NCBI GenBank assembly: GCA_011033025.1
Contig: WFMF01000066.1
Location: 372,001 to 436,000 of the forward strand
From: Beroe forskalii
Lineage: Eukaryota; Ctenophora; Nuda; Beroida; Beroidae
DNA: 64,000 nt
Reading direction: 5' to 3'
Position numbers and translations under genes: made by a program. Every line of letters begins with the position of its first letter. Position 1 is the stretch's first letter. Below, piece after piece: positions 18,786 through 63,345 of this stretch. The notes beneath the pieces are model-generated. The model was not told the origin of the DNA. It searched no databases and saw nothing but the letters and a program-made list of their open reading frames with translations.

Positions 18786-19477
18786 TCCTGAATTGAAATT
18801 GTTATATATTCAATTCAATAATTAAGCAAGAATCTGAGCTACCTCAGTGAATGAATGTGATGCATTATCACAATTATATGCGAAGTCTGAAATTCTGGTA
18901 AGCTGTCAAACTGTAATGTTGCTGTAAGACCATTTAGAAGTATAGATGCCAGATATAACATTAATAATTAATTGATATGTTAAATGTTTTAAACTTTACA
19001 GCACTACTAAATATAATAAAGTTATTGAAAGTTATTGAAAGTGCTGATTAATCAATTTTTAGAAAAAAAAAACTGTTTTTTGCATCTGACAGCATTCATG
19101 CACATTCAATTCTTCATAACAAAAGTTCAACTTTTAAAACTTTTAAAACTCCTGGAATTCTCTTTATTACAGTATTTGTATTCAATTTTAAATTATTACT
19201 GCTGCTTGAATTATTTTTGACTAAAATTTGAGCAGGTAGACGTATGTCCAATGACACCCCCTAAGGGGAGAAAGTGACGAAGTGATCTGAAGCAACAAGA
19301 TCCAGAGGAAATTACTACTCAGCTCTGAATTCGGTTTGTTACTGATTTTCATATGCTTACCATGGGTTCTTTCTTTGATTCAGTTCAGAAAGATAGCTCT
19401 TTCCTTAAACCACATGGAAAAAGATTAGAGGGTTTAGTAGAAATAAAACTGTAACTGTTCAATTGCTAAAGGATAAG

Positions 19478-23520: not shown

Positions 23521-24362
23521 ACTTAGCTGTTACTTACTGTCTGAATTATTGACACACATGTATTTTAGCAGAATTTTATCTGCTTTAAGACCATGTAACT
23601 ATCATTTAACTACTATCTGAAAAACAATGAGAAATTTAGTGGTTTTTAAACATGATCAGAAAAAATTTGGCTGATATAGTGGTTTTCTGCATCCAGAACC
23701 CGACCCGAGGTGGAATCAACCTCGCCCTCCCAGACACGCTAATTAGTTTACTTGCAAGGAGGCGTTCTGCTACTGTAATATTTCCGTAAACGCGGGATTG
23801 TGATTGTCACGTATGTAGGTTGCAATTGTAGATATGATTGCAGCACGTATCATATATCATAGGTTTGTGTGTAATACACCGCAACTCTCACTAACTATAA
23901 AGACTTGGTGAACAGACTTCAGCAATTCTGTACTGTAGTTTGTAGATAAAAATACAGCTTACACAAACATCCATGGGTGGAACTTGCAACCGGTAATCCC
24001 CATTTATTCAGGAAATTAGAAGCAGGTTATTTTATGACCATTTTCTAAAAGCAAAAATATTAAATTGAAAGATATTTCTGGAAATAGAATGATATTTATC
24101 GTCGTCCATCTTTTATTGAACTTTCAACATATATGTTGAAACCATATATGGTTTATCATGCACCTCTAGCCTACCTTTTTTACAGTGCACCTTAAAAACC
24201 CGTTTATGCACCGTAGCACATCAAAACTTGTTATGGTCGAGTGGAGATAGATAACTTATTACTTTATTATGGTGCAGTGCAACAATCAATTATGCACGAT
24301 AGGGCTAGTTATTGATTAGTTGATTCATATCATAATCCAAGATATATCCTTGTGTTTGAAAA

Positions 24363-25310
24363 TATCACTGGTGAAACAGGTGGGAATAGTGAGACCAGGT
24401 GTGTGACACCGGTGGGAATAGTGAGAACAGTTGTGTGACACTGGGAATAGTGAGAAGAGTTGTGTGACACTGGTGGGAATAGTGATAACAGGTGTGTGGC
24501 ACTGGTGGGAATAGTGATAACAGGTGCGTGACACTGGGAATAGTGATAACAGGTGTGTGGCACTGGTGGGAATAGTGATAACAGGTGCGTGACACTGGGA
24601 ATAGTGAGAAGAGTTGTGTGACACTGGTGGGAATAGTGAAAACAGGTGTGTGACACTGGTGGGAATAGTGAGAACAGGTGTGTGAAACTGGTGGGAATAG
24701 TGAAAACAGGTGTGTGACACTGGTGGGAACAGTGAGAACAGGTGCGTGACACTGGTGGGAACAGTGAGAACAGGTGCGTGACACTGGGAATAGTGAGAAC
24801 AGGTGTGTGACACTGGTGGGAATAGCGAGAACAGGTGTGTGACACTGGTGGGAATAGTGAGAACAGGTGTGTGACAGTGGTTTGTATAGTGAGAACAGGC
24901 GTGTGACACTGGTGGGAATAGTGAGAACAGGTGCGTGACACCGGTGGGAATAGTGAGAACAGGTGCGTGACACTGGTGGGAATAGTGAGAACAGGTGCGT
25001 GACACTGGTGGGAATAGTGAGAACAGGTGTGACACTGGTGGGAATAGTGAGAACAGATGTGACACTGGAGGAAATGGTGAGAACAGATGTGTGACACTGG
25101 TGGGAACAGTGAGAACAGGTACGTGACCTCTGATGGAAATGGTGAGAACAGGTTTGTGACACTGGTGGAAATGGTGAGGTTGTGTGACACTGGTGGGAAC
25201 AGTGAGAACAGGTGCGTGACACTGGTGGGAATAGTGAGAACAGGTGTGTGACACTGGCGGGAATAGTGAGAACAGATGTGTGACACTGGTGGGAACAGTG
25301 AGAACAGGTG
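24363..25310. repeat. Minisatellite, 32-bp unit, about 30 copies
   Basis: The unit contains GTGTGACACTGGTGGGAATA followed by GTGAGAACAGGT. Some copies lack four bases (GTGG or similar), giving about 28-bp variants. Because 32 is not a multiple of three and the unit has no stops, all three minus-strand frames are open over about 0.9 kb. The predicted His/Ser/Cys-rich peptides repeat in 32-residue cycles. Confidence 0.95.
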
Positions 25311-27747: not shown

Positions 27748-28870
27748 TTAATTATTGTGTCTAGATAGGGCGAGGTTGTTTCCACCTCGGGTCGGGATCT
27801 CGATGCAGGCAAAAAGGTCGGATTTAGCAGGGTTAATATTACCTAGGGCTATGTTACTATCTGGAGAGTCACGAGAATATCGGGAATGAACAAGAGAATC
27901 CCCGATAGTCTTGGCCTTTCTGAAGGTCACAAAGATGTTATCTTTGGAGACTACATCCTTCAGAGTATCATCCAAGTCAAGAAGGTACTTATGTTTGTTA
28001 ACAGCTCTGGTAGCACCTGCATAACTTGGATGAAAGTCAGGACTAAGAAATTCTCTGGCCTTACCCTCCTTCTGATATTAAAAACTTATTTCCAGGTCAC
28101 CATTAAATCTAATCTGTCTAAATTGTCACATTTATCAAATTCTGTACAAATAAATTCTCTATGATATCCTCTATCAACGAAATGTTCTGTGTGTGATAAT
28201 TTATGTTTTTTATATTCTGATTCATCTGAACAAATCCTTTTGATCCTCTTGGCTACTCCCTGAGGTATATTTGTGCACACATGCTTAGGATGGCAGGAGT
28301 TTGGATTGAGATAAGCATGTGTGTCTGAGGGCTTGGTATAAAGAGTAGTATGTATAAAGGAGTCTTTAATATATACTCTTGTGTCAAGATATTCAATGCC
28401 TTCAGAGGAGTCTTCTGCAAAGTTCATTGTAAATTTTATCTTAGGATGAAGGGTGTTTATCCAGGCATTGAACTCATGGAGCTTTTCTAACCCCATGATC
28501 CAAGGACAAAAAATATCATCTTTAAACCTACACCACAAGGCAATAGTGAAATCTTTGTTCTGATTAATCATCTGGTCTATAGGGTGCATAGCTATGTCAC
28601 ATATGAACAGGCATTATGCGGTCCCATAGCAGTACCGATTTTGGACATAAGCAACGTTGTTGAAAAATGAGATGTTTGTTCTCCAAAAATCTAGTTGCCT
28701 CTAGGATGCTTGGCAAGGGTGCTGGGGAACTTGACATCTCTCTTATCTAACAACGCCTTGCAAGCATCAAGGCCCATAGTATTATCAATACTAGGGGAAC
28801 ATTGCTACTACATCCCAACTGACTAAAATAATATCCCAATCTTTTCACTCAAGTCAAATTAAAACTTTCC
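27748..28870 (-). pseudogene. Penelope-like RT fragment, copy B
   Basis: The frame at 28086-28589 includes MHPIDQMINQNKDF and CRFKDDIFCP (RT motif C), EGIEYLDTRVYIKD, and QGVAKRIKRICSDE. A further piece, DDTLKDVVSKDNIFVTFRKA, reads at 27748-27975. The upstream RT motifs A and B are cut off near 28870, and indels break the frame near 28020-28090 and 28600-28800. The endonuclease is absent. Where copy C is broken this copy is open, and vice versa. Confidence 0.75.
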
Positions 28871-31399: not shown

Positions 31400-33227
31400 G
31401 GAGAGTCACGAATATCGGGAATGAACAAGAGAATCCCCGATAGTCTTGGCCTTTCTGAAGGTCACAAAGATGTTATCTTTGGAGACTACATCCTTCAGAG
31501 TATCATCCAAGTCAAGAAGGTACTTATGTTTGTTAACAGCTCTGGTAGCACCTGCATAACTTGGATGAAAGTCCAGGACTAAGGGAATTCTCCTGGCCTT
31601 ACCCTCCTTCTCGATATTAAAACTTATTTCAGGGTCACCAATTAAATCTAATCTGTCTAAATTGTCACATTTATCAAATTCTGTACAAATAAATTCTCTA
31701 TGATATCCTCTATCAACGAAATGTTCTGTGTGTGATAATTTATGTTTTTTATATTCTGATTCATCTGAACAAATCCTTTTGATCCTCTTGGCTACTCCCT
31801 GAGGTATATTTGTGCACACATGCTTAGGATGGCAGGAGTTTGGATTGAGATAAGCATGTGTGTCTGAGGGCTTGGTATAAAGAGTAGTATGTATAAAGGA
31901 GTCTTTAATATATACTCTTGTGTCAAGATATTCAATGCCTTCAGAGAGTCTTCTGCAAAGTTCATTGTAAATTTATCTTGGGATGAGGGTGTTTATCCAG
32001 GCATTGAACTCATGGAGCTTTTCAACCCCATGATCCAGGACAAAAAATATCATCTTTAAACCTACACCACAAGGCAATAGTGAAATCTTTGTTCTGATTA
32101 ATCATCTGGTCTATAGGGTGCATAGCTATGTCCGCATATGAACAGGCATTATGTGGTCCCATAGCAGTACCATTTTTTTGGACATAAGCAACGTTGTTGA
32201 AAAATGAGATGTTGTTCTCCAAAGTAATCCTAGTTGCCTCTAGGATACTTGTGGTGCTGGGGAACTTGACATCTCTCTTATCTAGCAACTCCTTGCAAGC
32301 ATCAAGGCCCATAGTATTATCAATACTAGGGAACATTGCTACTACATCCCAACTGACTAAAATAATATCCCCAATCTTTTCACTCTGAGTCAAATTAAAC
32401 TTGAAAATTTCATAAAGGAATTCAGATGAATCTTTCAGTACATATGGTAATTCAACAGCAATCTGCTTTAGATAATAGTCTGACCAAGCAGCTAGATTCT
32501 CAGTAGGAGACCCACACCCTGAAGTAATAAGACGCCCTGGGAAATTCGCCTGGGGCTTGTGTACCTTGTAATTACAATAGTCGTAACCTGGCCGAGATTC
32601 TTCCTTGACCATCCAAGAGCCCAGACGTTGGCTAATATCTCCTGCTGCCAATGAAGTTTCTACCCATTTTTCAATCATTTCATTGATGTCTTTGATTTTC
32701 TTTGGAATGGGTGAGGTATCATTTTCTTCATTGATGGGAGTGAAAGTGTCTGTGTCTCCCAGATGTGCCATGACTTTTGCTTCATAGTTGTCTTGAGTAT
32801 CTATAACCCAGCCAGTTCCCTTATCAAAATACCTAAAAACTGTGTCATCCCAATTTTGCAACTGTTTGAGGGCTTGTCTGTGCTTGGGAGACATGTTGTC
32901 AAAGGACTTATTACAGAGGCCAGCTGTCTTAAGTTCTTTAACAGTGAGTTGCAAATAAAGCTCAAGAGCCTGACTTGTGCTCTTGGGAGCTTCTCTGCCA
33001 GAAGGAGGAATGAGTGCAATTTCAGATTTTTTATGATCATTCTGAATGTTTGAAGAAGGTTGTTTACTGAAAAAGTGAGCCCATCTGAGTTTGCTCACCC
33101 ACCTATCGATGTCATTGTCCCTTTTGTCGATCTGTGGGTGTGAGGGGGTGGGAGCAAAGTCAGGGCCTAGAGTGAGGACTTCTTTCTGGTCATCAGTAAG
33201 CAGTTTTCCTGACAGGTTCAGAATCAT
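31400..33227 (-). pseudogene. Penelope-like reverse transcriptase, copy C
   Basis: Reads MILNLSGKLLTDDQ at 33227 and runs 401 residues. Motif A is VSWDVVAMFPSID, motif B is GTAMGPHNACSYADI, and motif C is RFKDDIF. Then indels near 32030 and 31950 shift the frame. The 3' part resumes at 31819-31406 (QGVAKRIKRICSDE to DSLVHSRYS). The GIY-YIG domain is missing; the sequence instead enters the 1.8-kb element flank near 31290. Penelope-like RTs prime on target DNA and are related to telomerase (family knowledge). Non-functional as assembled. Confidence 0.82.
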
Positions 33228-33309
33228 GCGATCATTGACTTTGACTGCTTCATTACCTTTAATTATTTTGTTGAGTGTCTGTTTCCTATTAGATCTAGCT
33301 GTGGCCTTC

Positions 33310-33502
33310 TTATATATATATATATTTCAAAATTGAACAGGACTCAAATGATACACCATTTAACTGATCGGAATCTTCGATAAATTACATCTTCTAAGGA
33401 TCATAAAGCTCAAATTTGATTGTATAAAGTATATATATATAGTTTCAAAATTCAACAGGACTCAAATGAAACGACATATATATATATATATATATATATA
33501 TA
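33310..33502. repeat. Penelope 5' terminal unit interleaved with (TA)n
   Basis: (TA)n at 33310-33326 is followed by a ~103-bp unit at 33327-33429, (TA)n to 33441, a partial unit (TTTCAAAATTCAACAGGACT) to 33474, and (TA)n to 33502. The unit is the same as 20707-20822 (inverted) and the start of 22509-22572. Nothing coding is seen from 33503 to 35412 apart from a short TAATAAT run near 34862. Confidence 0.75.
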
Positions 33503-38370: not shown

Positions 38371-39601
38371 TTGAACAACGCTTTGATTTAAAATCACTAG
38401 ACCTTTGCTGTATAATAAGATAATGATTATGTTTAATGTTCTCAAAACAGGAATTTAGGTAGTCGATGTGCACTTGGCCCCTAACAGTATGTATAGTAAT
38501 ATCCCATTTCATAATATTCAGATATCCAGATGCTTCGTCTCAAACAGGTAAAAGTGATTACTGATTACCGTAGCGCTAACGATCTTGCGAGTGTTCCTAA
38601 AAAGATTCATTAGCTCGTAAATATTTTACATGATCGATCTAGACGTCCCAGGGGACATATGTGTGATATTTACCTTTCCTCTGGTTATTAGTCCCACAGA
38701 CCTGTTATACACCACCACCTGTTTACAGAACGGTAAGTCTTACATTCTTACATTCGGTGTACTGCGACTAAGTTGTATATTATTACTATTTGTAAATCAC
38801 CAGAGCACCTGGCTACTCTGTGTCGTGACACCCGTCTGTGAGACTGTGTGTCACTGGTAAAACTACATAATATTATTCTGCTGAGCTGCTGCAAGCTGCT
38901 ACTCGGGGGAATCTTCAAGTCATGTTTATTCCTAGTAGGTATCGGCAACGTAAGGAGTTGCTGAGCCTGAGTCACGCCCTAGAAAAGTAGCAAACAAAAT
39001 CTTTCTTTTTATAAAAGATCCCACTTTCGTACCCAGTTGTTGTATGTGACTACGAGGTTCTGAAGTTATGTGGCTCAGAAATTGGCCTCTTAATTATACT
39101 TAGGTATGTGGAGTATAATAAGATAATACAAGTATAAACTTAGATAAACACATCTGCCCTAGCAGCACTCCAATTAGTTCTTCAGAAATCAAAATTAGTT
39201 TTGAACAGACAGTCTGACTCTCTTTATATGTGTTTAGGTGTAGTATATATTTAAGAAAACAGCGGCAGGAAGACCGGAAAACCTTGAAAATAATGCATAA
39301 TATGGGCATATTATTATGAATAATATTCTATCTTTTGTAAAACTGATGACATATAAGTGCAAATCCCAAATTTTATGTCTACCAGAGTAAACAAGTGTCA
39401 GGTTTGCCGAGTATTTTAAGATTTCCATAGACATCATAAATCCACCAAATCATCAGACACTACAGGTACAACGGACATAACAACTATTCCCAAGTAATAT
39501 GATTTTGTTTATAAATGAAAACTAGCAGACTTGTGCTTAACTCCCACATGCTTTGCTGATTTCACGGATCGGGTCGTTGAATAAGAGTCGCATGATTACA
39601 A

Positions 39602-39721
39602 TTGACGAGTAATTGATTTATTCTCTCTTGACTCAATGGTACAGGTACAAATCTAAACGATGTGGTTTAGATTTGAACCTGTACCACTGAGTCAAAAGAG
39701 AATAAATCAATTACTCATCAA
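39602..39721. repeat. Long hairpin, ~56-bp arms, 8-base loop
   Basis: TTGACGAGTAATTGATTTAT at 39602 pairs with ATAAATCAATTACTCATCAA ending at 39721. The whole 56-base arms match with about five mismatches around the loop CGATGTGG. It lies about 250 bases downstream of the predicted stop of the giant minus-strand gene, and the left arm carries TTTATT (AATAAA on the minus strand) at 39617, so it may sit in that gene's 3' UTR. It could alternatively be a tiny MITE. Confidence 0.8.
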
Positions 39722-39971
39722 TCCCACAGGCTCTCCTTCGTTACAATGGGTCAATTAATAACTATGGAGTTCTAAAAGCACAAAATATTATTGGCATTAC
39801 ATAAGCATGATATTATTATATCAGTGAATGGAAGTCTTGCTGTGTCAGTTGAACTTCATCAAATGGTAATATGGTATGTTATGCATGCTAATCACGATAA
39901 AAGAATGCTTTAAAGTTGCGATGAAACAACTGTGTGAAAAAGATGCTACCAATCAATGATCAATATTGCTG

Positions 39972-42900
39972 TCACTCACCATCATCATCGACATTGCAGT
40001 AGTCCAAAAGATCAATCACGACTTCCACCAGTTCAGGCTCCTGTTTTCCCCAGAGCTTTGATTGCCTCACCATCTTTATCAAGCATGTGTTCTAATATAA
40101 GATTCACCAGAACAGCAACAGGTTCAATGCGACTGTCATCTGTTTTTAGAATGCCATTTTCACCATAGGGCACCATCTTTGAATTGTCCAGCTCAGAAAT
40201 CAAATTGTCTCGGGCAGTTTGAGGGATATCAAGATTCTTAATAGCATTTCTTATTCTGTCCTTCATGTCACTACTCAGCATGTGAGAAACTGGGATATCC
40301 TTATCAACTCCTTCAAGCAGAACATATTCACGGTCATCCTTCCATAATTCTTTGTTCTTTATATCCTTATCAATGTCATCCATCCTGGCTGGTTCAGTGA
40401 CTAAAGGTTCCCTTTCCACCTCATCTTTGGTATCTTCTTCAACAACTATGTCCTCAATGATCCTATCCTCAATATCTTCAGACTCTAATAACAATTGTGG
40501 TGCATCTTCTTGTTCTTCAAAGGGTAATGGTGTACACTTCGAACAATGTGCTTTATGTTTATGGTCAAATTTATTGGTGTCCCATCTTCTTTAGCAGTGC
40601 TCAAGTTGATACAATCCCCTTCAACAGAATCAACACCTTCCAACTCTTTTGCAAGCAAGTTTACAGTTTCATCATCAAGACCACTTGATTTTAAAGACTC
40701 CAAGATTTCTGATTTTACATCGTCTGACACAATAATTGGCTTTGGAACTGGAGACTCAGACTTTTCAATAACTTTGGGTGAGTTTTCTTTAACCTCACAT
40801 TTATCCTCTTCCACATGTATATCACTGTCAGCTATCTCATCGTCAACATCACATGACTCCAATGATAATTCCGGAACTTTATTATCATCAATAGGATCTT
40901 TTTCAACTTTTTGTTTTATGTCTTCTTCGACAGTAATATCATCTTCAGGTAAATCACCAATATCACAAGATTTTAACAATAAGTCAGGTGACTTGTCCTT
41001 GCTATCTTCTGAGGTGGGAACATTTTCAATGCCGAATTGATCATTATCAACATCAAGAGGCTTTGGAACAATGTTTTTAATGATATGCTTGATATTAATT
41101 GTTAAGCTCACAGGTGTGCCATCAGCTTTCGAGGTTGCTAAATTTATTGTATCACCGTCAATTGATTCAACTTTGTCCAACTCTTCTTTCAGCAAATGGA
41201 TGGTCTCATCATCCAGATTCCCATTTTTGAGTGATTCAATAACCTGAGCTTTCATATAATCAGTCACAGGTGTCGCTTTTGGGGCAACAATCTCCTCACT
41301 GGGCTGAATACGGTCTATGGTCAATGTGAGATGAACAGGAGTACCATCACTCTTTTTGGTGTTCAGGAGCATTGTATCATAATCTTTTATTCCACTTTTT
41401 TCAAATTCTTTAACAAGCAGATTAATTGATTCATCATCTAAGTTACAACTTTTTAGAGCATCAGTTAAGGCTGATTTTATATCCTCAGTTACAGGCACAT
41501 CTTCGTTTTGGCTTGCTACTGGTTCAGGTAATGAAATACTACACTGACATACTATTGGTTGAAGTGAAATTGGAATGCCTTCATCTGGTTCAGGTTTGGC
41601 AACAAATTCGTAACTGTCATCACTATCATCTTTAGGCGAGGGTTCACACTGTGTAGCTTGCTTGTCAGAAGATACAATTTGGGGAAGTAATTCAAAACCA
41701 TCATCACACTTTCCAGGCAATTCAGCAACATCTTTATTTTCATCAGCTTTCTGAACCAGCTCAAAACTTTCATCAGGTAAGCTTTCCTTTTCCACAGGGA
41801 AGTCAACAATTTCATAATCTTCATTTGTGGTAGTCAATGGAATGGGCTTAACATCTTTTGTTATGTGGCTTACATTTATTGTCAATTCAATTGGTGAACC
41901 ATCTTTTCTGGTGGCATTTAGTTTCACTTGATCGCTTTCTAGATTTTCAATCTTATCAATTTCATCTTTCAAAGCATTGAACGTTTCATCATCCAGGCCA
42001 GCAGATTTAAGTGAATCGATGATTTGGGACTTTATTTCATCTGTAACAGGAACTGGAAAATGTGCTCCAGGCATCGTCTTTTGCTCACCTTCTATAGCAG
42101 GATCTCCACCATCATCAGAGGGTTTATCATCTGTGGTGGAGGGGTGCGATGGAGCAGGTTTATGAGCTTTTCCATCAGATGCTGGAATGTCATGTTCAGA
42201 CTTATCTAGCGATTCATCTGAATTAGCTGCAGAGTCATTATTATCAAAACCTCCCAAAGGAGGAATCGCACGAAAAAAATTCTTGACGTGAGTGATATTA
42301 ATTTTAAGTTCAACGGCAGTACCGTCTTCTTTCCTGACATAAAGCGTCAGGGATTTTGGTGGCAATTCATTCATATTCTCCAGTTCTTTACTTATCAGGG
42401 AAATGATTTCGGCATCCACATTACCAGCCCGCAAAGAATCTGTTATTTGAAGCCTTATATTATCAGTAAGTGGAGTAGATACTGGAGTATCATCTTTACC
42501 ACTAACTTCTATTGCTTCAGTTAACTTTATTGCATCTTTTTTCCTAACAGATGGTTTAGCTCCTCCTACTTCATCATCAGCATTGGCATTGTTCAGTAGT
42601 ATATTTTTTATGCTTATTGTAAGATTAACAGGAATACCATCGTGAGTATGACAGCTCAGGTGAAGTTCATCGCCTTCAACTTGCTTCCGTTTTTCTACCT
42701 CAGCTGCAAAAAGATCAATGAGATCCTGATTCATCTCGCCACATTTCAATGCATCAATAATCTGGGACTTGATTTCTGGAGTAAGTTCAGTTACAATGCC
42801 AGATTCTGAAGTCATGATGGGACTGTCTTCAACATTTGATGAAACAAGTAAGCTCACATCACCAATATTAAGAGGATCCTTGTCAGTTACCTCGTCATTG

Positions 42901-45900
42901 CTATCATCTGGTGCCTGCTTTGTGATCTGACTTATACTGATTATCAAATTTATTGGATTTCCATCCTTTTTAGTGGATGTAAGCTTCATTTGAGTACCTT
43001 GTAAAGTTTTCAGCTGATTAATTTCACTTTCCAGCAATATTCGAGTTTCATCATCAAGAGAACTAGCTTTGAGAGATTTCAAGAGTTCGAGTCTTATTTC
43101 ATCAGTAACAAGAATTTCAGGATTCTCAGTTGCCTGTGTTACAACTCTTTCTAAAGTTATATGGACATCATCCAGATGAACAATCTTGGCAGTGTTATCA
43201 ATAGGGTCTGTTTTCTCGGAATCAAGAGGTGTGGAAGGCTCAATCATTACTGAAGGGATAGCTGGGTCTGAACCTAAGAATTTGATGTTAATCACAATTT
43301 CAACTGGAGAACCATCATCTTTAGTCACCCCAATTTTCAGCTGTTCTCCCTTGATGTCAGTAAGTTCTCTAACTCTGACCAAAATGAGCTTTTTGAGGTC
43401 CTTATCAATATCACTGGATATAATTGCTTTTAAAATTCGTTTCTTCAATTTTTCTATCAAGGAAGGCTTGTTTTTAGGATCATCTTGTGGAATGATGAAA
43501 TCAACATCAATAGACAACGTTATTGTGGTTGATGGAAGCTTTATGATCTTGGTTATATTGAAGATCAGCTCAATGCATGTCCCATCTTTCATTGTCCCAA
43601 TAACCTTTATCGTATTGCCTTCAAATGACAAATTTGTATCAATTCCATCCAAAAGAAGTAGCTTTATTTCTTCACTTAGATCACTGGACTTAATCAGCAA
43701 TATCAATTGCTGTCTTATTTCATCTGATAATGGATGCTTCAGCAACGTTTCCAGGTCACAAGCTCCTTTTTCACTTACTGTCAATTCACAATCAATGATG
43801 ATTGGTTTTCTGACAGCAGGTGTCCCAGGAATCTCAATCATACCCACGGAAGCATCATTGGCTTCCATTGTAATAGTGAGTATAATTGGAGTTCCATCTT
43901 TCTTGGAAACCCTAAGCTTGATGCCATTGTCTCCAATGCTACTCAACTTATTGAGTTCTTTGATCAGGAGCTGTTTTGTCTCGGGATCAATGTCTTTTGA
44001 TGAAATTAATAGAATGAGTAGCTTCTTGATATCATGTTCAGCTGCACCAGGTGTTACCACAAAAGAAATGGGTTCTGATTTTCCTTCTTTAATCTTAACA
44101 TAGATTTTGAATCCAATTGGTCTTGTTTGCTCAAGGGCCATTTCATCCACTTTATCAGGTGAGGGCATACTTGCCGTTTGATCGTCTTGAGCAGGTTGAG
44201 AGTTTATGATGTGACTTATGTTTATTGTCAGCATAATTGGGGTCCCATCCTTCTTTGTGGCTTCAAGTTTTACTGAATCACCTTCAAAAGATTGCAGCAG
44301 ATTGATCTGTCCTAAAAGAAGTTCTTTGGTTTCATCATCAAGGTCACTTGATCTGATTGAGGCAATCAATTGCTGTTTTATGTCATCTGTTAGAGGTGTA
44401 ACAATAGGTTCAGATTTGGTTGTGGGTCCTTCTGAAGCAGCATCTACAGATGGTATGAGTGGCTCTTCTACATCCATGGGGACATCTTCTGAAATGGGAA
44501 CAGTCTCAGACTTGATGATATGACTTATATTTATGGTCAGCTCAATTGGAGTGCCATCCTTCTTCTTTGCTTTCAGTATCACAGAATCACCATCTAAATT
44601 TGAAAGTTTATCAACTTCATTTAGAAGGAGCTGTTTTGTTTCTTCGTCAAGACCACTTGAAGTGATTGAAAATTTCAGTTGCAGTCGTATGTCCTCACTA
44701 ATTGGAGTTGACGTTGGAGACATCAAATTTTCATCCGTTTGCATTATGACATCCTCATCAATTGGAACAACATTTGTTTCCTGAGGAGCATCAGTTTGTG
44801 ATTTAGTGATATGACTTATATTTATAGTCAGATTTATAGGGGTGCCATCTTTTTTCTTCGCTTTCAATATCAAAGAATCACCTTCCAAAGTGGAGAGGTT
44901 ATCAACTTCATTCAAGAGGAGTTGTATAGCTTCTTCATCGAGACCACATGAAGTAATTGATGATATCAATTGCAGTTTCAAATCTCCAGAGAGTGGTGTC
45001 GAAGCCTCAGTCATGGATTTATCATCTCCATCTTTGCTGCTTGGAAGCGCCTCGTTATTGTCACTAACTTTGATACCAACTTGGCTTGGGACCTCTGAGT
45101 CAGTTTCAACTGTATCCATGACCTTTTCTACTTCAGGTGCTGGTTCTTTTTGAGGAACGGTTCCAGATTTGATGATATGACTTATGTTTATGGTCAACTC
45201 AATTGGGGTGCCATCTTTTTTCTTTGCTTTTAGAAGAACAGAGTCACCTTCTAAAGTGGTGAGTTTATTGACCTCATCTAGAAGAAGCTCTTTAGTTTCG
45301 TCATCTAGACCACTTGATGTAATTGATGCTACAAGTTTCAGTTTGATATCTTCACTAGCAGGGGTTGATATTGGCTGACTTTCATCTGCAGGTTTCTGTA
45401 TTTCAGTAAGAGCATGAACATCATCAAGATGAACAGATTCATCTGGGAGAGCTTCCACTACATCATGAGTTTCACTTTCAACAAAGGGAATAAAAGGTTC
45501 TTCTACCTCCATTGGAACTTCTTCATCTAGAATATCTTCAGATACCATGCCAGGTTTTGCCTTAGCAACACCACCCTCAGCTTTCAATGGCGATTCTCCA
45601 TCCCCAACTGATGGCTTTCCAGCTTCAGGCTTGGTCTTAGCAACCCCACCTTCAGCTTTTAGAGTTGATTCTTCATCCCCAACAGATGGCTTGCCAGCTT
45701 CGGGTTTAGTCTTAGCAACCCCACCTTCAGCTTTCGATGGCGATTCCTCATCTCCAACTGATGGCTTGCCATCTTTAGGTTTAGTCTTAGCAACCCCACC
45801 TTCGAGCTTTTAGAGTTGATTCTTCATCCCCAACTGATGGCTTTCCAGCTTCAGGCTTTAGTCTTAGTTAAACCCCACCTTCAGCTTTCGATGGCGATTC

Positions 45901-48900
45901 CTCATCTCCAACTGATGGCTTGCCATCTTTAGGTTTGGTCTTAGCGACCACCACTCAACAGATTTCTTTTAGAGTCTTTAGCTGATTCTTCATCCCCAAC
46001 TGATGGCTTTCCAGCTTCAGGCTTGGTCTTAGCAACCCCACCTTCAGCTTTCGATGGCGAATCTTCATCTCCAACTGATGGCTTGCCATCTTTAGGTTTG
46101 GTCTTAGCGACACCAGCTTGAGCTTTTAGAGTTGATTCTTCATCCCCAACAGATGGCTTGCCAGCTTTAGGGGTTTAGTCTTCAATGGTGAAACCCCACC
46201 TTCAGCTTTCGATGGCGATTCCTCATCTCCAACTGATGGCTTGCCATCCTTAGGTTTAGTCTTAGCAACCCCACCTTCAGCTTTTAGAGTTGATTCGTCA
46301 TCCCCAACAGATGGCTTGCCAGCTTCGGGTTTAGTCTTAGCAACCCCACCTTCAGCTTTCGATGGCGATTCCTCATCTCCAACTGATGGCTTGCCATCTT
46401 TAGGTTTGGTCTTAGCGACACCAGCTTGAGCTTTTAGAGTTGATTCTTCATCCCCAACAGATGGCTTGCCAGCTTCGGGTTTAGTCTTAGCAACCCCACC
46501 TTCAGCTTTCGATGGCGATTCCTCATCTCCAACTGATGGCTTGCCATCTTTAGGTTTAGTTTTAGCTAAACCACCTTCAGCTTTCAGTGGTGATTCTTCA
46601 TCTCCAACTGATGGCTTGCCATCTTTAGGTTTAGTCTTTAGCAACTCCACCTTCAGCTTTCAGTGGCGATTCTTCATCTCCAACAGAAGGCTTGCCATCT
46701 TTAGGTTTAGTCTTAGCGACACCAGCTTGAGCTTTTAGAGTTGATTCTTCATCCCCAACAGATGGCTTGCCAGCTTCGGGTTTAGTCTTAGCAACCCCAC
46801 CTTCAGCTTTCATCTCCAACTGATGGCTTGCCATCTTTAGGTTTAGTCTTGGCTAAACCACCTTCAGCTTTCAGTGGTGATTCTTCATCTCCAACTGATG
46901 GCTTGCCATCTTTAGGTTTAGTCTTAGCAACCCCACCTTCAGCTTTCAGTGGCGAATCTTCATCTCCAACTGATGGCTTGCCAGCTTCAGGTTTAGTTTT
47001 AGCTAAACCACCTTCAGCTTTCAATGGTGAATCTTCATCTTCAACTGATGGCTTGCCATCTTTAGGTTTAGTCTTAGCTAAACCACCTTCAGCTTTTGAT
47101 GGTGACTCTTCATCTCCAATTGATGGCTTGCCATCTTTAGGTTTAGTCTTAGCAACTCCACCTTCAGCTTTCAGTGGCGATTCCTCATCTCCAACTGATG
47201 GCTTGCCAGCTTCAGGTTTGGTCTTAGCGACACCAGCTTGAGCTTTTAGAGTTGATTCTTCATCCCCAACAGATGGCTTGCCAGCTTCGGGTTTAGTCTT
47301 AGCAACCCCACCTTCAGCTTTCAGTGGCGATTCCTCATCTCCAACTGATGGCTTGCCATCTTTAGGTTTAGTCTTAGCTAAACCACCTTCAGCTTTTGAT
47401 GGTGACTCTTCATCTCCAACAGATGGCTTGCCGTCTTTAGATTTGGTCTTAGCAACACCACTCTGAGCTTTAAGACGTGCATCTTCATCTCCAACAGATG
47501 GCTTGCCGTCTTTAGATTTGGTCTTAGCAACACCACTCTGAGCTTTAAGACGTGCATCTTCATCTCCTACAGATGGCTTACCATCTTCAGTCTGAGGAGT
47601 AGCTTCCACAGGGGCTTGTGTTCCATCTTCAACAAGGGGAAGAGGAGATTCTTCCACCTCCATTGGAACCTCTTCATCAAGAATATCCTCAGATACCATA
47701 CCAGGTTTGGTCTTGGCAACCCCACCTTCAGCTTTCGATGGTGAATCTTCATCTCCAATTGATGGCTTGCCATCTTTAGGTTTGGTCTTAGCAACACCAC
47801 CTTGAGCTTTTAGTGGTGATTCTTCATCTCCAACAGATGGCTTGCCATCTTTAGGTTTAGTCTTAGCTAAACCACCTTCAGCTTTCAGTGGTGATTCTTC
47901 ATCTCCAACTGATGGCTTGCCATCTTCAGGTTTAGTCTTAGCAACCCCACCTTCAGCTTTCGATGGCGATTCCTCATCTCCAACTGATGGCTTGCCATCT
48001 TTAGGTTTAGTCTTGGCTAAACCACCTTCAGCTTTCAGTGGTGATTCTTCATCTCCAACTGATGGCTTGCCATCTTTAGGTTTAGTCTTAGCTAAACCAC
48101 CTTCAGCATTCAATGGCGAATCTTCATCTCCTACAGATGGCTTACCATCTTCAGTCTGAGGAGTAGCTTCCACCGGGGCTTGTGTTCCATCTTCAACAAG
48201 GGGAACAGGAGATTCTTCTACCTCCATTGGAACCTCTTCATCTGGTATATCTTCAGAAACAAGCTCTGGCTTGGTTTTGGTAACACCTTCCTGAGCCTGC
48301 AAAACTGAATCATCATTTTGCCTGGAAGGCACTTCAGAACCTTCTATTTCCATTGGTGTATCTGTACTTCCAATGTTTTCAATCATTTTTATATTAATAT
48401 TAAATTTCAAAGGTGTGCCATCTTTTTTCACAACATCAAGTGTGATTGTATCTCCTGTGTAATAAGCTAGATTTTTAAGTCTCACTAAAAGCATCTTTTT
48501 AGTTTCTTCATCAAAATCGCCATTATTGATCATATCAACTAGTTTAAGCCTAAACACGGGATCAATTGTTTTCAGATCAGCAACAGGTGTGGGGTCTTCA
48601 CAAATAGTAACTGATTGATCTCCTTGAGATGTTTCTTCTAAATTCCACTTGATATTGAATTTGAGTGGGGAGCCATCCTTTTTCACAACACTGAGAGTAA
48701 TGGTTTCACCTGTTAAACAGGCTAAACTATTTACTTCCGTCAATAGCAGCTTTTTAGTTTCATCATCGAAATTACTAGCATTGATCATATCGATTATTTT
48801 GAGTTTGAATACAGCATCTACTTCTTTCTTATCCGGGGCACTACTATCTTCAGAAGGTGCAGCAGCTCCTTTTTGTCCCACTGACTTATCATCTTTTCCT

Positions 48901-51900
48901 GCCTCCTCAATAAAATCACATTTTATACTAAACTTTAAAGGAGTACCATCTTTTTTCATTATATTAAGCACAATGGTGTCTCCTGTATAATATGCTAGTT
49001 CATCTAATTGATTAAGGAGCATCTTTTTAGTATCATCGTCAAAATCACTGTTATTAATCATGTCAACTATCTTGAGCTTGAATATTGGTTCAATCACTTT
49101 TCTTTCACCGTCAAGACTTGAATCTTCAACTTCGGGAGTACTCTGTACAGGCTTTACCATTGGTGGACTGTCCACAATCTCTTCAGGACCTTTTGCAGTG
49201 GCACCATCAACAGACATGTAATTAATTTTAAACACAACAGGTGTACCATCCTTTTTAGTAACGTCAAGGGTTATTGTGTCTCCATAAAAACAAACAAGAT
49301 CGTCCAACTTACTGAGAAGAAGGTCTTTTGTTTCATCGTCAAAATCTCCACTTTTAATCATATCAACTATCTTCAATTTCATCACAGGATCAAGATTTCT
49401 CTTTTGCAAGTCTGCCTCCAAATCTTTCGACTCATCAGGCTTTACCATTGGTGGACTGTCCACAATCTCTTCAGGACCTTTTGCAGTGGCACCATCAACA
49501 GAAAGGTAATTGATTTTAAACACAACAGGTGTACCATCCTTTTTAGTAACGTCAAGGGTTATTGTATCTCCATAAAAACAAACAAGATCGTCCAACTTAC
49601 TGAGAAGAAGGTCTTTTGTTTCATCATCAAAATCTCCACTCTTAATCATATCAATTATCTTCAGTTTCATCACAGGATCAAGATTTCTCTTTTGCAAGTC
49701 TGCTTCCAAATCTTTCGGCTCACCAGGCAGAACACGGATTTTATAGATCTTCTTGGATTCACTTATGTTAAAGACAGCATCAGGACCCTCAATACTATAA
49801 GTTGTTTTCACTAGTGCTTTGATAACTTCATCTTGCTCGGGATTTGTAAGATCACTAACTGAAAAATGAGTGATAACCTTTTTCTTTAAGTCATCTTCTG
49901 GAATGACAACTTCATTAGGATTTTGAGGTGGAATACCGAATTTAAACTTGATTGGGATCCTCTTATAAGTTATTTCGATCATAGCAGAATCAGGTGCTTG
50001 ATTGAAATTGCCTGCATAGAACTTCTCGGTCAGTAGCTTCTTCTTTTCAGGAGTAAATTTCGATTCTTTAATTGCATCAGTTCCTAATATCAGAATTCGT
50101 ATTGGTATGAATGAGCCAGGAGTAGAAGAGTTACTGTACTCAATTTTGACGTCAGTGATTTCATACTTTTTAATCAATACAGTCAAAATCAAAATTGGAT
50201 CAGTGATAGATTTGATGATTATCTCATTGTTGGTCATCTTAAATTTATCATCAACAAGTTTTCGGATGAGTTCAACTTTATGCTTGTCATCTATGCTCAG
50301 CATTGTAATGAGCTTGATTATCTTATGTTTCAATTGAATCATTTCATCACTTAGTGGTCCTGCTATTTTTTCATCATCTTCAGTTGAATCTTGAGAATCC
50401 AAAGTTGTAGCAGATATACTTGCTTCAAACGGCTTGGGCTTTTCAGATAATTTCTTATTGGTATGTATTTTAACAGCTAATTCAGGAGAAGAAGCACACT
50501 CATCAGAGGATGTTAAACTATCTCGTTTGAATCCTTCAATCAGAATTTTGTTTCCATCTCGTCTATATCTCCCATGTTTTACAGCTCGAATTGCAATGTC
50601 TCTACTTTCAGGGTTGATTGTTGAAGAATTGATGATCTCAATGAGCTTTTCTGCAACCTCTTCGTCTGGAACATCTTTAGAGATGTAAAAGTATGGTAGG
50701 TACACTTTGTTACTACTTTTGTTTTCAAGCTGTGATGGATCAACTTCAAGTTCAAGCGATTGCCTTTCCTCACCATCTTTGAGAAGGACAGAAAGATTAT
50801 TGCCCTCTAAGACATAGTTATTATTATATATGGAAGACAAAACTGAATTACGTTCAGTAGCATTCATATTTTTGTCTGCAGTAAACTTATCCACAATCTC
50901 AACTAATTTTGAGGTAGCAATGTTAGATTCCCTCTGAATAATTTGTGGATACAGAACTCCAGGAAGATTCAAGGTTATATTTTGAGTTGTATTGCCTGAT
51001 TTCATGAGGATAGTAACTTTACTGAGCCCAACTTCACATTGGTCATTCTGTATTGCTTGCAACAATCTTGTTTTGATATGGGATGGAAATTTCAACTTTG
51101 AGATTGCAAGATTTATGAACTGTTTTGTAGAGGCATGTAGAATTTTAGGATTGTTTGGATCTTTTCCAGGTAGGATGAATCTTGCTTGAAGGTCGGGTCC
51201 AGCAAAAATAACAAGATTGAGATCTTTACAAGTATAGCTTTCATGATTTATTGCATTGATGAGAAGTTCTTTTTGTATCTCAGAAATCTTGTTATGGGTC
51301 TTAACAAACTCTTTAACTCGCGCAATCCTTTGTCTTAGCATTCCAGTGTCCTTTACTATAGACTTGAGGGCTCCTTTATTCTTGAGAGCACTCAAACGAG
51401 AGAATTTGGACACTTTTGAAGAACCTTGTTTTGGACTGCCGGGTGGACTTCTTCGAACTCCTTTTGGGCTATCTTTTTTACCAGCAGGAGGACTAGGCTT
51501 AGGGTTAGATCCTGGAACAGGAATCCCTTTCTTTGCAGTTGGAGACTCAACTCTAGGAGGAGTCGTCTTCTGAGATGGTGAGCCAGTTCGCACAGGAATT
51601 GATCTTTGTGTCGGTGACTCAACTCTCGTGGGAGCAGATTTAGGTGTTGGTGATCCCGTTTTAACTCTTTTTTGAGAAGGAGATGGATCCTCCTGCTTCG
51701 GAGTTGGAGATTCTTCTCGAGCAGTTTTCTGTGAAACTTTTTCAGGCTGAACACTTTCATCAGAGCCTACTTTTGTGGCACCGAATTTAGAGGCGCCAAA
51801 TTTGGAGCCAGCTAATCCTCCCCTTCCAGGAGGATTTCCAAATTTTGATGCCCCAACACCAGGTTTGTTTGCTGCATCATCTGCTGCCGCTCCTTGACCA

Positions 51901-52091
51901 AATCGGCTGGAAACCTTTGATGCCGGCTTTTCCCACGGTTTCCTAGGGGCAGCTGCTGGTTCTTCCGATGCAGTTGATGACTTTCGCTGCCATGATTCTG
52001 CAAGTTTTCCCTTTGGCACACCAACACCCCCCTTACCAGCAAATGAAACGCCTCTGGTTGGAGGGACTCCTGATCCCTTGTTAGAGGACAT
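39972..52091 (-). CDS. Giant modular repeat protein (~4,000 aa), DGTP-hairpin modules
   Basis: No known family recognised. From ATG at 52091: residues 1-245 are basic and disordered, with four KFG/RFG motifs (about 62-107) and a run of SPTP/SPTQ/SPSQ sites. Residues 252-792 hold seven diverged and 805-1240 five clear copies of a ~62-residue module (amphipathic helix, D-D-E-T-K turn, helix, then GDTITLDVTKKDGTP and a beta strand). A central array of 25-residue repeats follows (48160-45547), then 14 more modules (45353-40545) and a diverged last one. Frames break at about 46800-45790 (many small indels in the array), once near 40540, and once in a G-run near 40050. Repeat phase resumes after each break, so I read one gene with assembly indels. 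After the last shift the protein ends VEVVIDLLDYCNVDDDGE at 39972, unless GTGAGT at about 39979 is a donor to a further exon. No introns otherwise. A cytoskeletal or scaffold role is only a guess. Confidence 0.85.
40040..45353 (-). repeat. C-terminal DGTP module array, 15 modules
   Basis: Fourteen clear copies plus a degenerate fifteenth. Pattern: (T/S)(D/E)xIKxQLIxSIxSSxLDDE, TKxLLLxEVDKL, then xGDSVxLKAKKKDGTPIEL and TINISHIIKS. Spacers of 10-90 residues are acidic and unstructured-looking (for example SEDIPDEEVPMEVEE and DDSYEFVAKPEPDEG). The KDGTP turn is the best conserved element; variants are KDGSP, KDGNP and HDGIP. Confidence 0.85.
45547..48160 (-). repeat. 75-bp tandem array encoding 25-residue SPxK repeats
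   Basis: About 30 copies of a 75-base unit encoding KPSVGDEESPLKAEGG followed by VAKTKPKDG, interrupted once at about 47577-47745 by a SEDI(L)DEEVPMEVEE spacer. Most copies contain SPLK or SPSK, the (S/T)PxK consensus of proline-directed CDK-type kinases; other variants are STLK and ARLK. The segment 45790-46200 has irregular insertions that break the frame, unlike the clean copies around it. Confidence 0.9.
48372..51340 (-). repeat. N-terminal DGTP module array, 12 modules
   Basis: Five clear modules occur at residues 805-866, 901-961, 1001-1062, 1092-1152 and 1177-1240, preceded by seven diverged ones at 252-792 in which only the helix pair and the beta hairpin are recognisable. The first two clear modules and their linkers are a nearly identical 288-base tandem duplication (49425-49712 and 49137-49424). 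Confidence 0.8.
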
Positions 52092-55000
52092 GAAACGCTC
52101 AACTATTCGAGAATGCTAGAAAATCCGTCTTACACGTACTCCATGAACTGCTCGACTATGAGGAGAGTTTAATCAATTAATGATTAACACATATTATATG
52201 AAACAAACCAAATTGGTCACTAAAAAGGTACATGTAACTTGTTGGGATTACCTATTCGGTAATTATGAAAAATGGCAACAACAATAAATTATCGCAGTGC
52301 ACTTTCAAGTCGAGGCAAATGGCAGCAAAAGTGGATATCAAAGCGAACTGTAATGAAAATGATGACTCATATTGACTAACAATTTATAAAGAAAGAAGCG
52401 CAGGAACTGAACACTGAACTGAATCAGAATATCTAGCTGAATCAATAAACAGTAGTTAGATAATTATAGTGACTATGACCATTTTAACTATGAAATTTTC
52501 ATATTACTATATTAATGCAAATTTTGAACAATTTTCGTTACAGGACGCCTTTCAAATAATAATTATGACTAAATAATGAATTAAATGTTCAGATGTCAAG
52601 TCACCAGGCACTACTTATGTTCGATCGACATGAGAAGCAACTGTAAGTCGCCTATATGCATGCGTATTACGTAAGTCGCATGACATTGCTGACAAGATAT
52701 TTACACGACACAAATCAAACCCATTCGGTGACTTCTCACGACGACTACGATTTCCCTGCGGCTCTTATTGCGACCGAGAAATAACTTTACTGCAAATAAT
52801 TTATATGTGGGTTCGGTAAATTCCATTAAATTTTAAGGATTGAATTTAGTTTTACCTGACTCTGAATAAGAGTAATAACGAACAAGCGGCGAAAGTCAGA
52901 ATCCAATTACAGAAGAAAGCATTACGAAGATTACTACACATTATGACACTCACAACTACATCGCAGGAAAGTTCAGAGCAGGGAACTAAGCATATTTGTA
53001 TGGTACCTGTTATACCTAGTACCTACAAGTTAGAAGCTTTCGGCATGGCGTCATCCCTGCAACATTATAAGCAGGTATAACTGCAACAAAGGTGCTGACA
53101 AGATGGCTCTTGTTGTGAAGCCTCTCTTCTGGCAGCAATTATACTGGCAGCAGTTGTGCTGGCCGTGTTTATACCAATCACTTTGCGAATTTCTATTAAT
53201 TAACTGCGGATACTATTTCAAGCTTTTGAACTTCCAAAGCAATTTAAGGACGCACAAAGCAATAATTAACAAGTACGAAATGCCATTTTCTGGATTTTCT
53301 GGAGTTGAGATTGGGTACTGTTTATGGTGGGGCCTCAGATTTTAGATGTTTAAATGGTAATAATACAGCTCGATGATGATTTAACGACAGCTGAGCACTA
53401 CAGTATGTTAAAACCGTGCTAGGTATTCCATCGTATGTCAAGACGTGTGTCTTGTATATGTCGAGATGAGAAGCTATCAGTTGAGATCATTCCATCACAT
53501 GGTCGCCGGCAGCGCCGTCACTCATCACACAGCATTGCTGCAGTGCTTTCTGACTCCTAACCAACAAGGCAGAACACGCCTAGGTTAAGCATGGGCGTGA
53601 GAAGAGCTTGAGGTGGTCGCGTGACTCTTTTAATTAATTATTATTATCTGCTAATTATTCAGATATCTAATCAAGATCTTAGGGGGATGTTGACTTATTA
53701 AAATTCCCATCTGACACTCTGAATGAGACATACGCTTCCCTCCGCAATCAAAATTCCTACTTTCCATTTAATCTTTAGATTGCATGCACCATCTAATTTT
53801 TCATCACACAACCAGATTTTAATGATAAATATGAAGCTCGATCTGAATGGGGTGATCCTTGGATTGAAATCAGTAAAACAGCCCTGACTGTGGTGCTCTG
53901 AAACATACCAACGCCCAAAACCCGTCGAATAAAAAACGGAACAAACATGCACCGTTTTCAACATTCCCTAAGAGCCAATAATAATATCGACATACCCCAG
54001 CCCTGATAATTATCGTTATTTAACGAAAATAGTTAAACATAACAAATGCCGGTATCGCAAAAGAGTTCTAGTAGTTATAACGGGTGTGCATTCTTTAGTG
54101 GGAGTGATAATTTTAAGGGAAGAAACACAAGTTGTCAACATGGATTCCTTAGCAGTCTTCCAGGCTACCATTATAACACGAACTGAATCATGAAACGAAT
54201 ATGGTTGGTCGAGAACTTAGTCACAAGTAAGTCAGGTTAATTAGAGTTCATTACTTCACTACTTGGTATTTCGATGAAACATTCTTATTTCAGGCTCAGG
54301 TTATAATATAGCGAGATCTTAGAAGAGAATATTTCAGATTGGTAATATTATTCGCAAGTAAAGCCTTGCGATATATGTTACAGGAATTAACAGAGATGAT
54401 GTTGAATATGATAATATTCGATGTCATCAATTCTATATTTCATGGCTTCATCCCTTCATGCATGATTAAGTAGCTGCTGTTAGTGATGGGAATGAATCAG
54501 CAAAAGCTGTCAGTTTATGACCCGTGAAAAATTCAATTCATCATCATTTTAGGGAAACGTAAAGCAAGATAGTCCCGATCCTCACTAATGTCTAATTGTA
54601 TAAATTATATGCTCGTATCGTGCATACACTTGAAAAACTTGAAATATAAAATCAGATAGTGAAGAATAAGCCGTAAATTGCTAAATAGCTTGAAGTACTG
54701 TTCCAAAATAATAAATTTCATCAATATGACGTGTGCATTAGAGCTTAGCCCCATTATACCGAGAACACCTCTAAAATCATTTCCTACCATTTCAGTTATT
54801 AACGGAGAACGTGCTCAGTCTCATGGCTCAGTATCATGACGAGCCTATCAACATATCATTTCTTCATTTATATTTTTATGGCGATGAACGCTCACATGCA
54901 ACTTATATGTCTCATAATCAAGTGCTTAAAACGATAAACATGCCTTTAGACCTTACTTTGGTTCCTTTAATATTGACACAAATTGCATTCCATCCCAATC

Positions 55001-61225: not shown

Positions 61226-62367
61226 ACATACCGGTAACATCCTACGATAATGTTGGTGGATCGATTTCTCCCATCCCTGAGCTAGTGCGCGCTACACTCG
61301 GAGGTTTGGAGGGTCTTCCTAAGCTTGCTAAACACGTATATCCCTGTCTGCGTTGCGCGGCGCGCTTCCCGTAGGGTAGCGCGGCGCGTTCCCCTAACCA
61401 GGGGTGTCGCGAGTAAAACTAGGGATCTGGTTAGAGCAACGCGGCGCGCGTACGCACAACTATGCGGGCTTAGGAATCCTAAGCCCGCATAGGTGCCTGT
61501 ACGCGCCGCGCGAGCCCACACAGGGCCAGGGATATACGTGTTTAGCAATGGAGGGTCGTGTTGCATACTCCCGCGGAAAATTAAACGTTGCGTGCGCGGC
61601 GGAGGGTTGCTAAACACGTATATTCCTGTCTGCGTTGTGCGTACGCATACCTATGCGGGCTTAGGAAGGCGGAGGGTAGGGTAACATCCTACAACGTATA
61701 ATGTATATCCTTGCTAAACACAGTAAACACGTATACCATACCCCTGTAATCGTCGCGCGGCGCGTACACACACCTATGCGGGCTTAGGAATGTATATCCC
61801 TGTGTGGCTCGCGCGCGGCGCGCTTCTCCAATTACCAGAGGTGCAGTCCGGTGTGCGTATGTGCTTGAAACCTTGGTTACTTGGTTAGCTGAGACGATTA
61901 TTTTTTAATCGCAAATGCTTTCACTTGCATTGCATTTGATCTATCCCATGTTTAGAGAGCACTTCCCGTGTCTTGTCGAACGATGTAAGTCCTGCTGACG
62001 CCAGCGTGCGGCGCTGAATGCTGATTTTCACGAGGGTCTGTCAACAGCCGACATAGTAATAGTCAAGTTATTTTTGTCAGCATTATTATCGTTATTGAGA
62101 AGATTTATTTATTCATCCTTTTTGTCTCTTTTGTACAGCTACAAGATAAATTATGGTTTATTTTCGTAGTTTATTTTCGTACCAGACCACTACAACTCTT
62201 CTTTTTGTTTTGAACATTCTCCTTGAAGATATCAAGCTGCAGATTCTTTGTTTCGTTTTTACCTTTCATTTTAGTATATAATAAAGGCAATCTTTATGGA
62301 TATTAGAATATTAAGCTATTACTAAGGTAGCTATAAATCATTGAGTTTTAATGCAGTCAGCATAGGT

Positions 62368-63345
62368 ATGTCATTGTCCTACTTCTCATCCCTTGAGGAG
62401 GTGATCCAAACTACAGATGAAGAACTTCAGACTGGTATAGGATCTTTGGATCCTGAAACTGTAACAAAGTATGTGTTCCATCTTAGGAATAAATTGAGAG
62501 AAGCTGATCAGGATAAGGCAAGATATAATGAGGAGATTTCAAGACTACAGGGTGTAGTTGAAACTCTTCAGGTTAGCTTGGACAAGAACATGGAAATGTT
62601 GAATGTAGATGGACCACCTCCCTGTGTCCCTTCTTCCTCACAGGCTGCTATCTTCCCCAGTATTCCAGGCAGTGTATGGACCTGGGCCCATGATGGGAGT
62701 AGACCCAATGGGATAATAGAATTTATACCTGATGGAGGGACTAAGTGGTTCAATGGGAAAAGACAAGGCCACTGGAAGTTGAAGAATGGAAATACTGTAT
62801 TGGAAACAGAATTCAATGGAGTTTATCATGAACTGGAGTACATTGCTAATGAGCAGAAGGCAATTTTGAAGGTACCCATTAGGTCACCACCAAGTCAAAT
62901 GTGGATTCAGGTCAATAGATTTGATTCTCCTCTGCAAGATATGTGTAAAGACTCCAAAATAGCTTTATCTAGTTGCCACAAAACATTTGTTCAAGCTCAC
63001 TCTGATGGTACAGTTGATTGCAGTGGAGTTGATATCACACCCAATGCTGTTTGTGAAGTAGTTCCAGTTAAACCTAACACAGTGGCTTTCAGATCTACTT
63101 TTGGAAAATACCTTTCAGCTCAACCATCTGGGAAGCTAGAATGGAACAGAGGGGGAGCTCCTAATGTATGGGAATTTTTCACAGTTCAAAAAATAGGTGG
63201 CAAAATAGCACTGTATTCATGCCATGGTAAATATATTTCAGCTCAACCCAATGGCAGTATTGAAGTGAATCGACAGTTAGCTCAGGCCTGGGAGTATTTT
63301 TCTGTGATTGATGGAAATATTTTCAATTCACTAGGTATAATATAA
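62368..63345 (+). CDS. Coiled-coil protein with fascin-like beta-trefoil domain
   Basis: 325 residues from the first in-frame ATG; the frame is open upstream to 62341. A coiled coil lies near 37-80 (KYVFHLRNKLREADQDKARY). Next comes a Trp/Gly-rich beta domain at 100-182 (GSVWTWAHDG, GGTKWFNGKRQGHWKLKNGN, ETEFNGVYHELEY). The C-terminal part has three internal repeats typical of a fascin/FRG1-type trefoil: KIALSSCHKTFVQAHSDGTV, VAFRSTFGKYLSAQPSGKLE, and KIALYSCHGKYISAQPNGSI, each closing with (V/A)WE(F/Y)F. Fascin trefoils bind actin or other ligands; one trefoil with a coiled coil would need dimerisation to cross-link (inference). It is not a four-trefoil fascin. Single exon as seen; 61821-62367 upstream shows no other gene. 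Confidence 0.8.
   Translation: MSLSYFSSLEEVIQTTDEELQTGIGSLDPETVTKYVFHLRNKLREADQDKARYNEEISRLQGVVETLQVSLDKNMEMLNVDGPPPCVPSSSQAAIFPSIPGSVWTWAHDGSRPNGIIEFIPDGGTKWFNGKRQGHWKLKNGNTVLETEFNGVYHELEYIANEQKAILKVPIRSPPSQMWIQVNRFDSPLQDMCKDSKIALSSCHKTFVQAHSDGTVDCSGVDITPNAVCEVVPVKPNTVAFRSTFGKYLSAQPSGKLEWNRGGAPNVWEFFTVQKIGGKIALYSCHGKYISAQPNGSIEVNRQLAQAWEYFSVIDGNIFNSLGII

Follow-up and report, generated by a model that had tools for sequence, protein, structure and literature searches.

Epiplakin is a very large protein that consists almost only of one repeated domain and is encoded by a huge coding exon; its plakin repeats form a Pfam family. AHNAK is a giant protein with long central repeats, most of which is encoded by a single giant exon flanked by small ones, and it combines an N-terminal region containing a PDZ domain with repeats of ~128 residues, those of AHNAK2 being ~165 residues long (PMC10682155). 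We describe here a locus of the ctenophore Beroe forskalii in which two long open frames encode many copies of one module (Table 1). The window, i.e., the whole stretch of DNA that was analyzed, comprises 64,000 nucleotides (positions 372,001 to 436,000 of contig WFMF01000066.1), and coordinates are those of the window. Eleven stretches of the genome match the Wnt family above its cut-off, compared with 0/14 control genomes, which agrees with an animal source, Wnt being a family of animals. The earlier note on this DNA had called the large exon unusual, which it is, although exon size alone is not new since giant repeat exons have a precedent in AHNAK. What is new, judged from sequence, appears to be a module under constraint for which no catalogued relative could be accepted and which the genome search places in a single gene. 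The chances seem to us about equal that this module is, or is not, an undescribed small domain family found in this animal lineage only, which would have arisen and multiplied in one gene to give a scaffold of ~4,000 residues that serves a cytoskeletal or structural function specific to that lineage.

A repeated module with a conserved Asp-Gly turn

Nineteen clear copies of a module of ~66 residues were identified, 14 in ORF C and five in ORF N. A profile built from these motif-centered segments returned the same 19 copies at 67 to 98 bits from the six frames of the window, with only weak matches elsewhere in those frames (i-E 4.8 or worse). Since this search is circular for its own seeds, a separate profile was made from each half. 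The profile of the five N modules recovers 14/14 ORF C modules, each with an i-E ≤ 1.6e-4, and that of the 14 C modules recovers 5/5 ORF N modules, while 0/100 shuffles of either target reach an E of 0.01. The earlier note had placed the module in both halves of the protein, and its presence, strand, and coordinates hold up.

Table 1. Features of the modular gene (window coordinates)
Feature	Position	Strand	Remarks
ORF N	46803..52115	(-)	1,770 aa between stop codons; first Met = 52091
N-terminal tail, basic, Cys-free	51372..52091	(-)	240 aa, pI 10.8, 13 SP/TP
Diverged module region, m1-m7	49716..51347	(-)	m4-m7 supported, m1-m3 not individually
Module 1 (N813)	49482..49679	(-)	Profile match and alignment
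Module 2 (N909)	49194..49391	(-)	Recently duplicated in tandem with module 1 (unit of 288 bp)
Module 3 (N1009)	48894..49091	(-)	Profile match and alignment
Module 4 (N1100)	48621..48818	(-)	Profile match and alignment
Module 5 (N1185)	48366..48563	(-)	Profile match and alignment
75-bp (25-aa) tandem array	45552..48154	(-)	Between modules 5 and 6; frame-breaking
ORF C	40485..45809	(-)	1,774 aa between stop codons; in frame with ORF N
Module 6 (C152)	45159..45356	(-)	Profile match and alignment
Module 7 (C274)	44793..44990	(-)	Profile match and alignment
Module 8 (C371)	44502..44699	(-)	Profile match and alignment
Module 9 (C474)	44193..44390	(-)	Profile match and alignment; query for genome-wide search
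Module 10 (C591)	43842..44039	(-)	Profile match and alignment
Module 11 (C695)	43530..43727	(-)	Profile match and alignment
Module 12 (C785)	43260..43457	(-)	Profile match and alignment
Module 13 (C902)	42909..43106	(-)	Profile match and alignment
Module 14 (C1010)	42585..42782	(-)	Profile match and alignment
Module 15 (C1115)	42270..42467	(-)	Profile match and alignment
Module 16 (C1256)	41847..42044	(-)	Profile match and alignment
Module 17 (C1441)	41292..41489	(-)	Profile match and alignment
Module 18 (C1516)	41067..41264	(-)	Profile match and alignment
Module 19 (C1695)	40530..40727	(-)	Profile match and alignment
Probable continuation ORF, other frame than ORF C	40033..40590	(-)	One diverged module, about 40096-40290
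Possible C-terminal end, ORF C's frame again	39972..40043	(-)	Read by eye; TGA overlaps GTGAGT donor-like site

Eight weaker segments (m1 to m7 and E, the latter in the 3' ORF) were picked by eye, and the score of every segment was compared with those of shuffled versions of it (500 made for each, the denominators being those that HMMER reported). Five are supported as diverged copies, with the real score reached by 0/462 shuffles for m4, 4/499 for m5, 0/451 for m6, 0/471 for m7, and 0/486 for E. The other three are doubtful (35/462 for m1, 29/480 for m2, and 167/493 for m3), and the count of about 27 copies proposed earlier is thus an upper figure made up of 19 clear, five supported, and three doubtful ones. 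Taken as one, residues 241-805 are matched or beaten by 1/740 scored shuffles (1,000 made). A profile of m1-m7 matches that of the strong modules with a probability of 63% and an E of 7e-5 over 38 columns, which correspond to the helices, a match favored by the by-eye choice of segments.

AlphaFold2, given the 19 modules as alignment, predicts two helices (residues 2-14 and 19-31) followed by two strands (39-45 and 51-57), with a mean pLDDT of 83 and a pTM of 0.68, and places D48-G49 between the two strands. This model agrees with the helix-helix-beta-hairpin unit that had been proposed. D48 and G49 are the only invariant residues of the alignment (19/19 each); by reading of the alignment, P is found in 17/19 modules, T in 14/19, and K before D in 13/19, so the K(K/E)DGTP turn previously described as invariant reduces to its D and G. 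From an alignment restricted to the eight diverged segments, with m7 as its first sequence, the prediction is helix, helix, short strand, and hairpin (pLDDT 71, pTM 0.48), which lends moderate support to a common fold of diverged and strong modules. Selection has acted on the module, with pN below pS in 171/171 pairs of the 19 modules (means 0.43 and 0.72). Since a mean pS of 0.72 puts synonymous sites near saturation, dN/dS is rough for most pairs; the C152/C371 pair has a dN of 0.11 and a dS of 1.18. Together with the predicted fold, these values uphold the view of a folded unit under selection.

The 288-bp unit with module 1 is tandemly duplicated, with 96% matches. In a tree of the modules, the five N modules form a starred group, whereas the C152-C371 and C902-C1695 groups are not starred, and 2/16 inner branches are well supported. 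This pattern suggests that the gene may have grown by block-wise tandem duplication, in order along its length.

The module is confined to a single locus by a search of the 216-Mb genome, which scores only the best candidates, so that distant paralogs could be missed. A single module (C474) gave 19 matches at E ≤ 1, 19/19 of them in this gene, and most of ORF C (1,609 aa) gave four, all at this locus. The diverged region and the N-terminal tail each found only themselves, while the DNA of the last three modules matched, apart from itself, a single further stretch of the gene. Among prokaryote genomes, viral contigs, phages, and plasmids, there was no confirmed relative.

The protein has a charge polarity. 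From the basic tail, the pI falls to 8.1 in the diverged region, 4.5 in the five modules with their linkers, 4.7 in the part of the array within ORF N, and 4.9 in the 14 modules. The linkers between the 14 C modules are 11-121 aa long and, with a pI of 4.06, are as acidic as had been claimed; several of them end, by eye, in TPL or TPI immediately ahead of helix 1. Cys, absent from the tail, is rare elsewhere. For signal peptide and disorder, the assessment drew on visual inspection and composition.

Frame breaks and extent of the gene

ORF N and ORF C together provide ~10.6 kb of intact frame. A ~4,000-residue protein encoded by an intronless 12-kb single exon had been proposed at this locus. 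The two ORFs, of 1,770 and 1,774 aa, lie in one frame, and each is open over 5.3 kb, the extent over which the gene is shown to be intronless, but the frame is interrupted as assembled, and an unbroken 12-kb frame is absent from the assembly.

Within the 75-bp array, 5/26 anchored intervals have a length that is not a multiple of three (61, 151, 83, 163, and 154), all situated between about 46832 and 45771. They sum to 612, a net change of 0 mod 3, by which the frame is restored. In the 20 exact 75-bp units of the 26 intervals, differences at codon positions 1/2/3 are 0.10/0.05/0.23, and this concentration at position 3 indicates that the array is also constrained as protein. We prefer assembly or consensus error in near-identical repeats as the explanation of the frame shifts in the array; real lesions are a possible one.

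At the 3' end, ORF C stops at 40485, and the continuation to the TGA at 39972, which the earlier note had counted as part of the gene, takes two frame changes, out and back, which cancel. Both lie within about 500 bp of nonrepetitive DNA, and the second adjoins a GGGGAAAA run. GT-AG intron joins are possible, with as many as 33 and 19 solutions, so the gene end at 39972 is a guess, and the frame breaks could stem from a faulty assembly, from genuine lesions, or from short introns. Four other ORFs of the window with Pfam matches are each a single open frame, hence base errors are not obviously common, which weakens homopolymer sequencing errors as the source of the two 3' changes. Just downstream of the gene lies an inverted repeat (39601-39722), which may be a small hairpin resembling a transposon; its 58-nt arms show 93% complementarity and are separated by 6 nt, and an AATAAA at 39622 is situated within it.

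The frame breaks admit two other readings of the locus. The gene might be decaying, its formerly joined halves parted by frameshifts and its C-terminal end already lost, as the five out-of-frame array intervals, the two 3' changes, and the open state of the four neighboring ORFs would suggest. We regard this as quite improbable given the intact frame of about 10.6 kb in two ORFs, the cancellation of the shifts in the array as well as of those at the 3' end, and the run next to one 3' change; module pairs with dN well under dS also speak against decay, although they reflect mostly past constraint and are compatible with a recent onset. Less probable still are two separate genes with module and array in common. 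Such a pair would look like what is seen, two long ORFs separated by a stretch in which the frame is broken, but ORF N and ORF C lie on one strand and in one frame, array units and the SEDI(P/L)DEEVPMEVEE linker are present on either side of the array break, and at E ≤ 0.1 the genome search with the tail returned no match other than the tail.

Several other features of the window were noted. A 32/189-bp tandem array at 24371-25310 imitates long ORFs by virtue of its repeats, three frames of the minus strand being open. Single open frames encode a RAI1-like nuclease of 352 aa (17751-18809; E 3.1e-35) and a protein with a fascin-type domain (62326-63345; Fascin E 4.5e-9). Stretches at 22951-23529, 28086-28613, and 31406-33326 look by eye like several partial copies of a Penelope-like reverse transcriptase/endonuclease; the ORFs at 22951-23529 and 32022-33326 have no Pfam match. 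TAGGGT-type hexamer arrays form a telomere-like stretch inside the contig (60724-61168), and a 100-N assembly gap (15456-15555) closes a long TATC-type low-complexity stretch.

Known families, predicted fold, and proposed role

Taken singly, the modules have no significant match in Pfam (best E 0.036), NCBIfam (0.016), or PHROGs (0.037), the best value coming in each case from 1/19 members. To this extent the module lies outside described families, as the earlier note had surmised, but the whole of ORF C scores 35.3 bits against Pfam PAS_9 (PF13426; E 1.5e-8) and passes the cut-off of 27 bits; against Pap_E4 it scores 24.6 bits (E 5.1e-5), below a cut-off that is also 27 bits. This comes close to the significant HMM match that the earlier note had named as evidence against a new family, except that 0 stretches of ORF C pass alone for PAS_9 or Pap_E4. 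The best PAS_9 stretch spans only profile positions 56-87 of 103, an E ≤ 1 for PAS_9 is reached by only 2/19 modules taken singly (best 0.075), and one further module matches the PAS family with an E of 0.096. We read the PAS_9 score as the sum of many weak matches to one D-G-turn hairpin. Since no stretch passes alone and the matched part of PAS is the hairpin, we do not accept PAS membership of the module.

Against solved structures, the module profile matches a tandem SUMO-2 chain (E 1e-6), two designed chains (0.031 and 0.044), and single SUMOs (from 0.083). In the single SUMO chains, the match is confined to profile positions 32-57, and in the tandem chain the best single domain spans 18-57 with an i-E of 0.031; no SUMO/ubiquitin-like match was found to extend beyond one hairpin. 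The predicted module is H-H-E-E, and beta-grasp chains are absent among the fold matches listed, although the module could have such a fold nonetheless. Foldseek with the module model gave no match at E ≤ 0.001, fold searches against solved structures gave nothing convincing, and Phmmer with ORF N or ORF C found no PDB match at E ≤ 1. In Pfam, ORF N matches only DUF2835 (E 0.11), with no PDZ, and neither ORF contains an accepted domain that would indicate a location.

We see roughly even prospects that this single-copy gene encodes a giant intracellular beads-on-a-string scaffold with a basic tail and a mostly acidic body. Each bead would be a ~60-residue helix-helix-beta-hairpin domain, in which the invariant Asp-Gly forms the hairpin turn and is probably needed for folding rather than catalysis. 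Acidic linkers, presumably disordered, would join the beads, and the 25-residue tandem array may serve as a long flexible spacer. Through the tail, which carries Ser/Thr-Pro sites, the chain would be held on an acidic surface (a cytoskeletal filament or nucleic acid), and its acidic body of beads would extend away from that surface and serve as a multivalent scaffold or spacer. It is from the charge polarity, the lack of an accepted catalytic family, and the tandem arrangement of beads and spacers that we infer this role; that the anchor is cytoskeletal is guessed from composition.

Two alternatives bear on what the module is and where the protein acts. The module could be a shortened, diverged, and many times repeated member of a known D-G-turn hairpin family (PAS or SUMO/ubiquitin-like), which would fit the PAS_9 score of ORF C above its cut-off and the matches to the tandem and single SUMO chains. 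We find such kinship highly improbable, since the PAS_9 score dissolves into stretches that fail individually, a single hairpin accounts for most of what the SUMO matches span, and the model, two helices and then one hairpin, has no Foldseek counterpart at E ≤ 0.001. Moreover, many hairpins use a D-G turn, which would explain the weak PAS and SUMO matches without kinship. The main functional rival to a cytoskeletal anchor is a nuclear protein, whose basic tail would bind nucleic acid while its acidic modular body organized chromatin or RNP. Charge polarity and SP/TP motifs speak for it but suit a cytoskeletal anchor as well, and no nucleic-acid-binding family reached its cut-off for ORF N or ORF C; we consider it unlikely.

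If lineage-restricted, the module would offer a clean case of a small fold multiplying within one gene, with domain birth and spread readable within a single locus, whose copies range from highly diverged ones at one end to two tandem neighbors that are almost the same. If relatives prove widespread in animals, an uncatalogued module still gains a name and a fold. The function of the gene is directly testable by localization and knockdown.

Among the closest known systems, the X domains of paramyxovirus phosphoproteins have a three-helix X-domain fold. PAS (PF13426) and SUMO-2/3 share with the module a beta-hairpin with a D-G turn, but it is mainly this hairpin that aligns, and neither the pair of helices ahead of it nor the size agrees. 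Epiplakin is, like the protein described here, a very large product built from one repeated domain, except that plakin repeats are in Pfam and the present module matches no family on its own. Projection proteins of the MAP1B/Futsch and neurofilament-H type share no domain with it in the Pfam scan but resemble it in their opposite charge blocks, low-complexity arrays, and Ser/Thr-Pro sites. Finally, AHNAK and AHNAK2 resemble the putative product of this gene, encoded in two open frames of 5.3 kb, as giant repeat proteins; AHNAK differs in its PDZ domain, for which there is no match here, and in its longer repeats, in place of which a ~66-residue module, predicted to fold, and an array of 25-residue units are encoded here.
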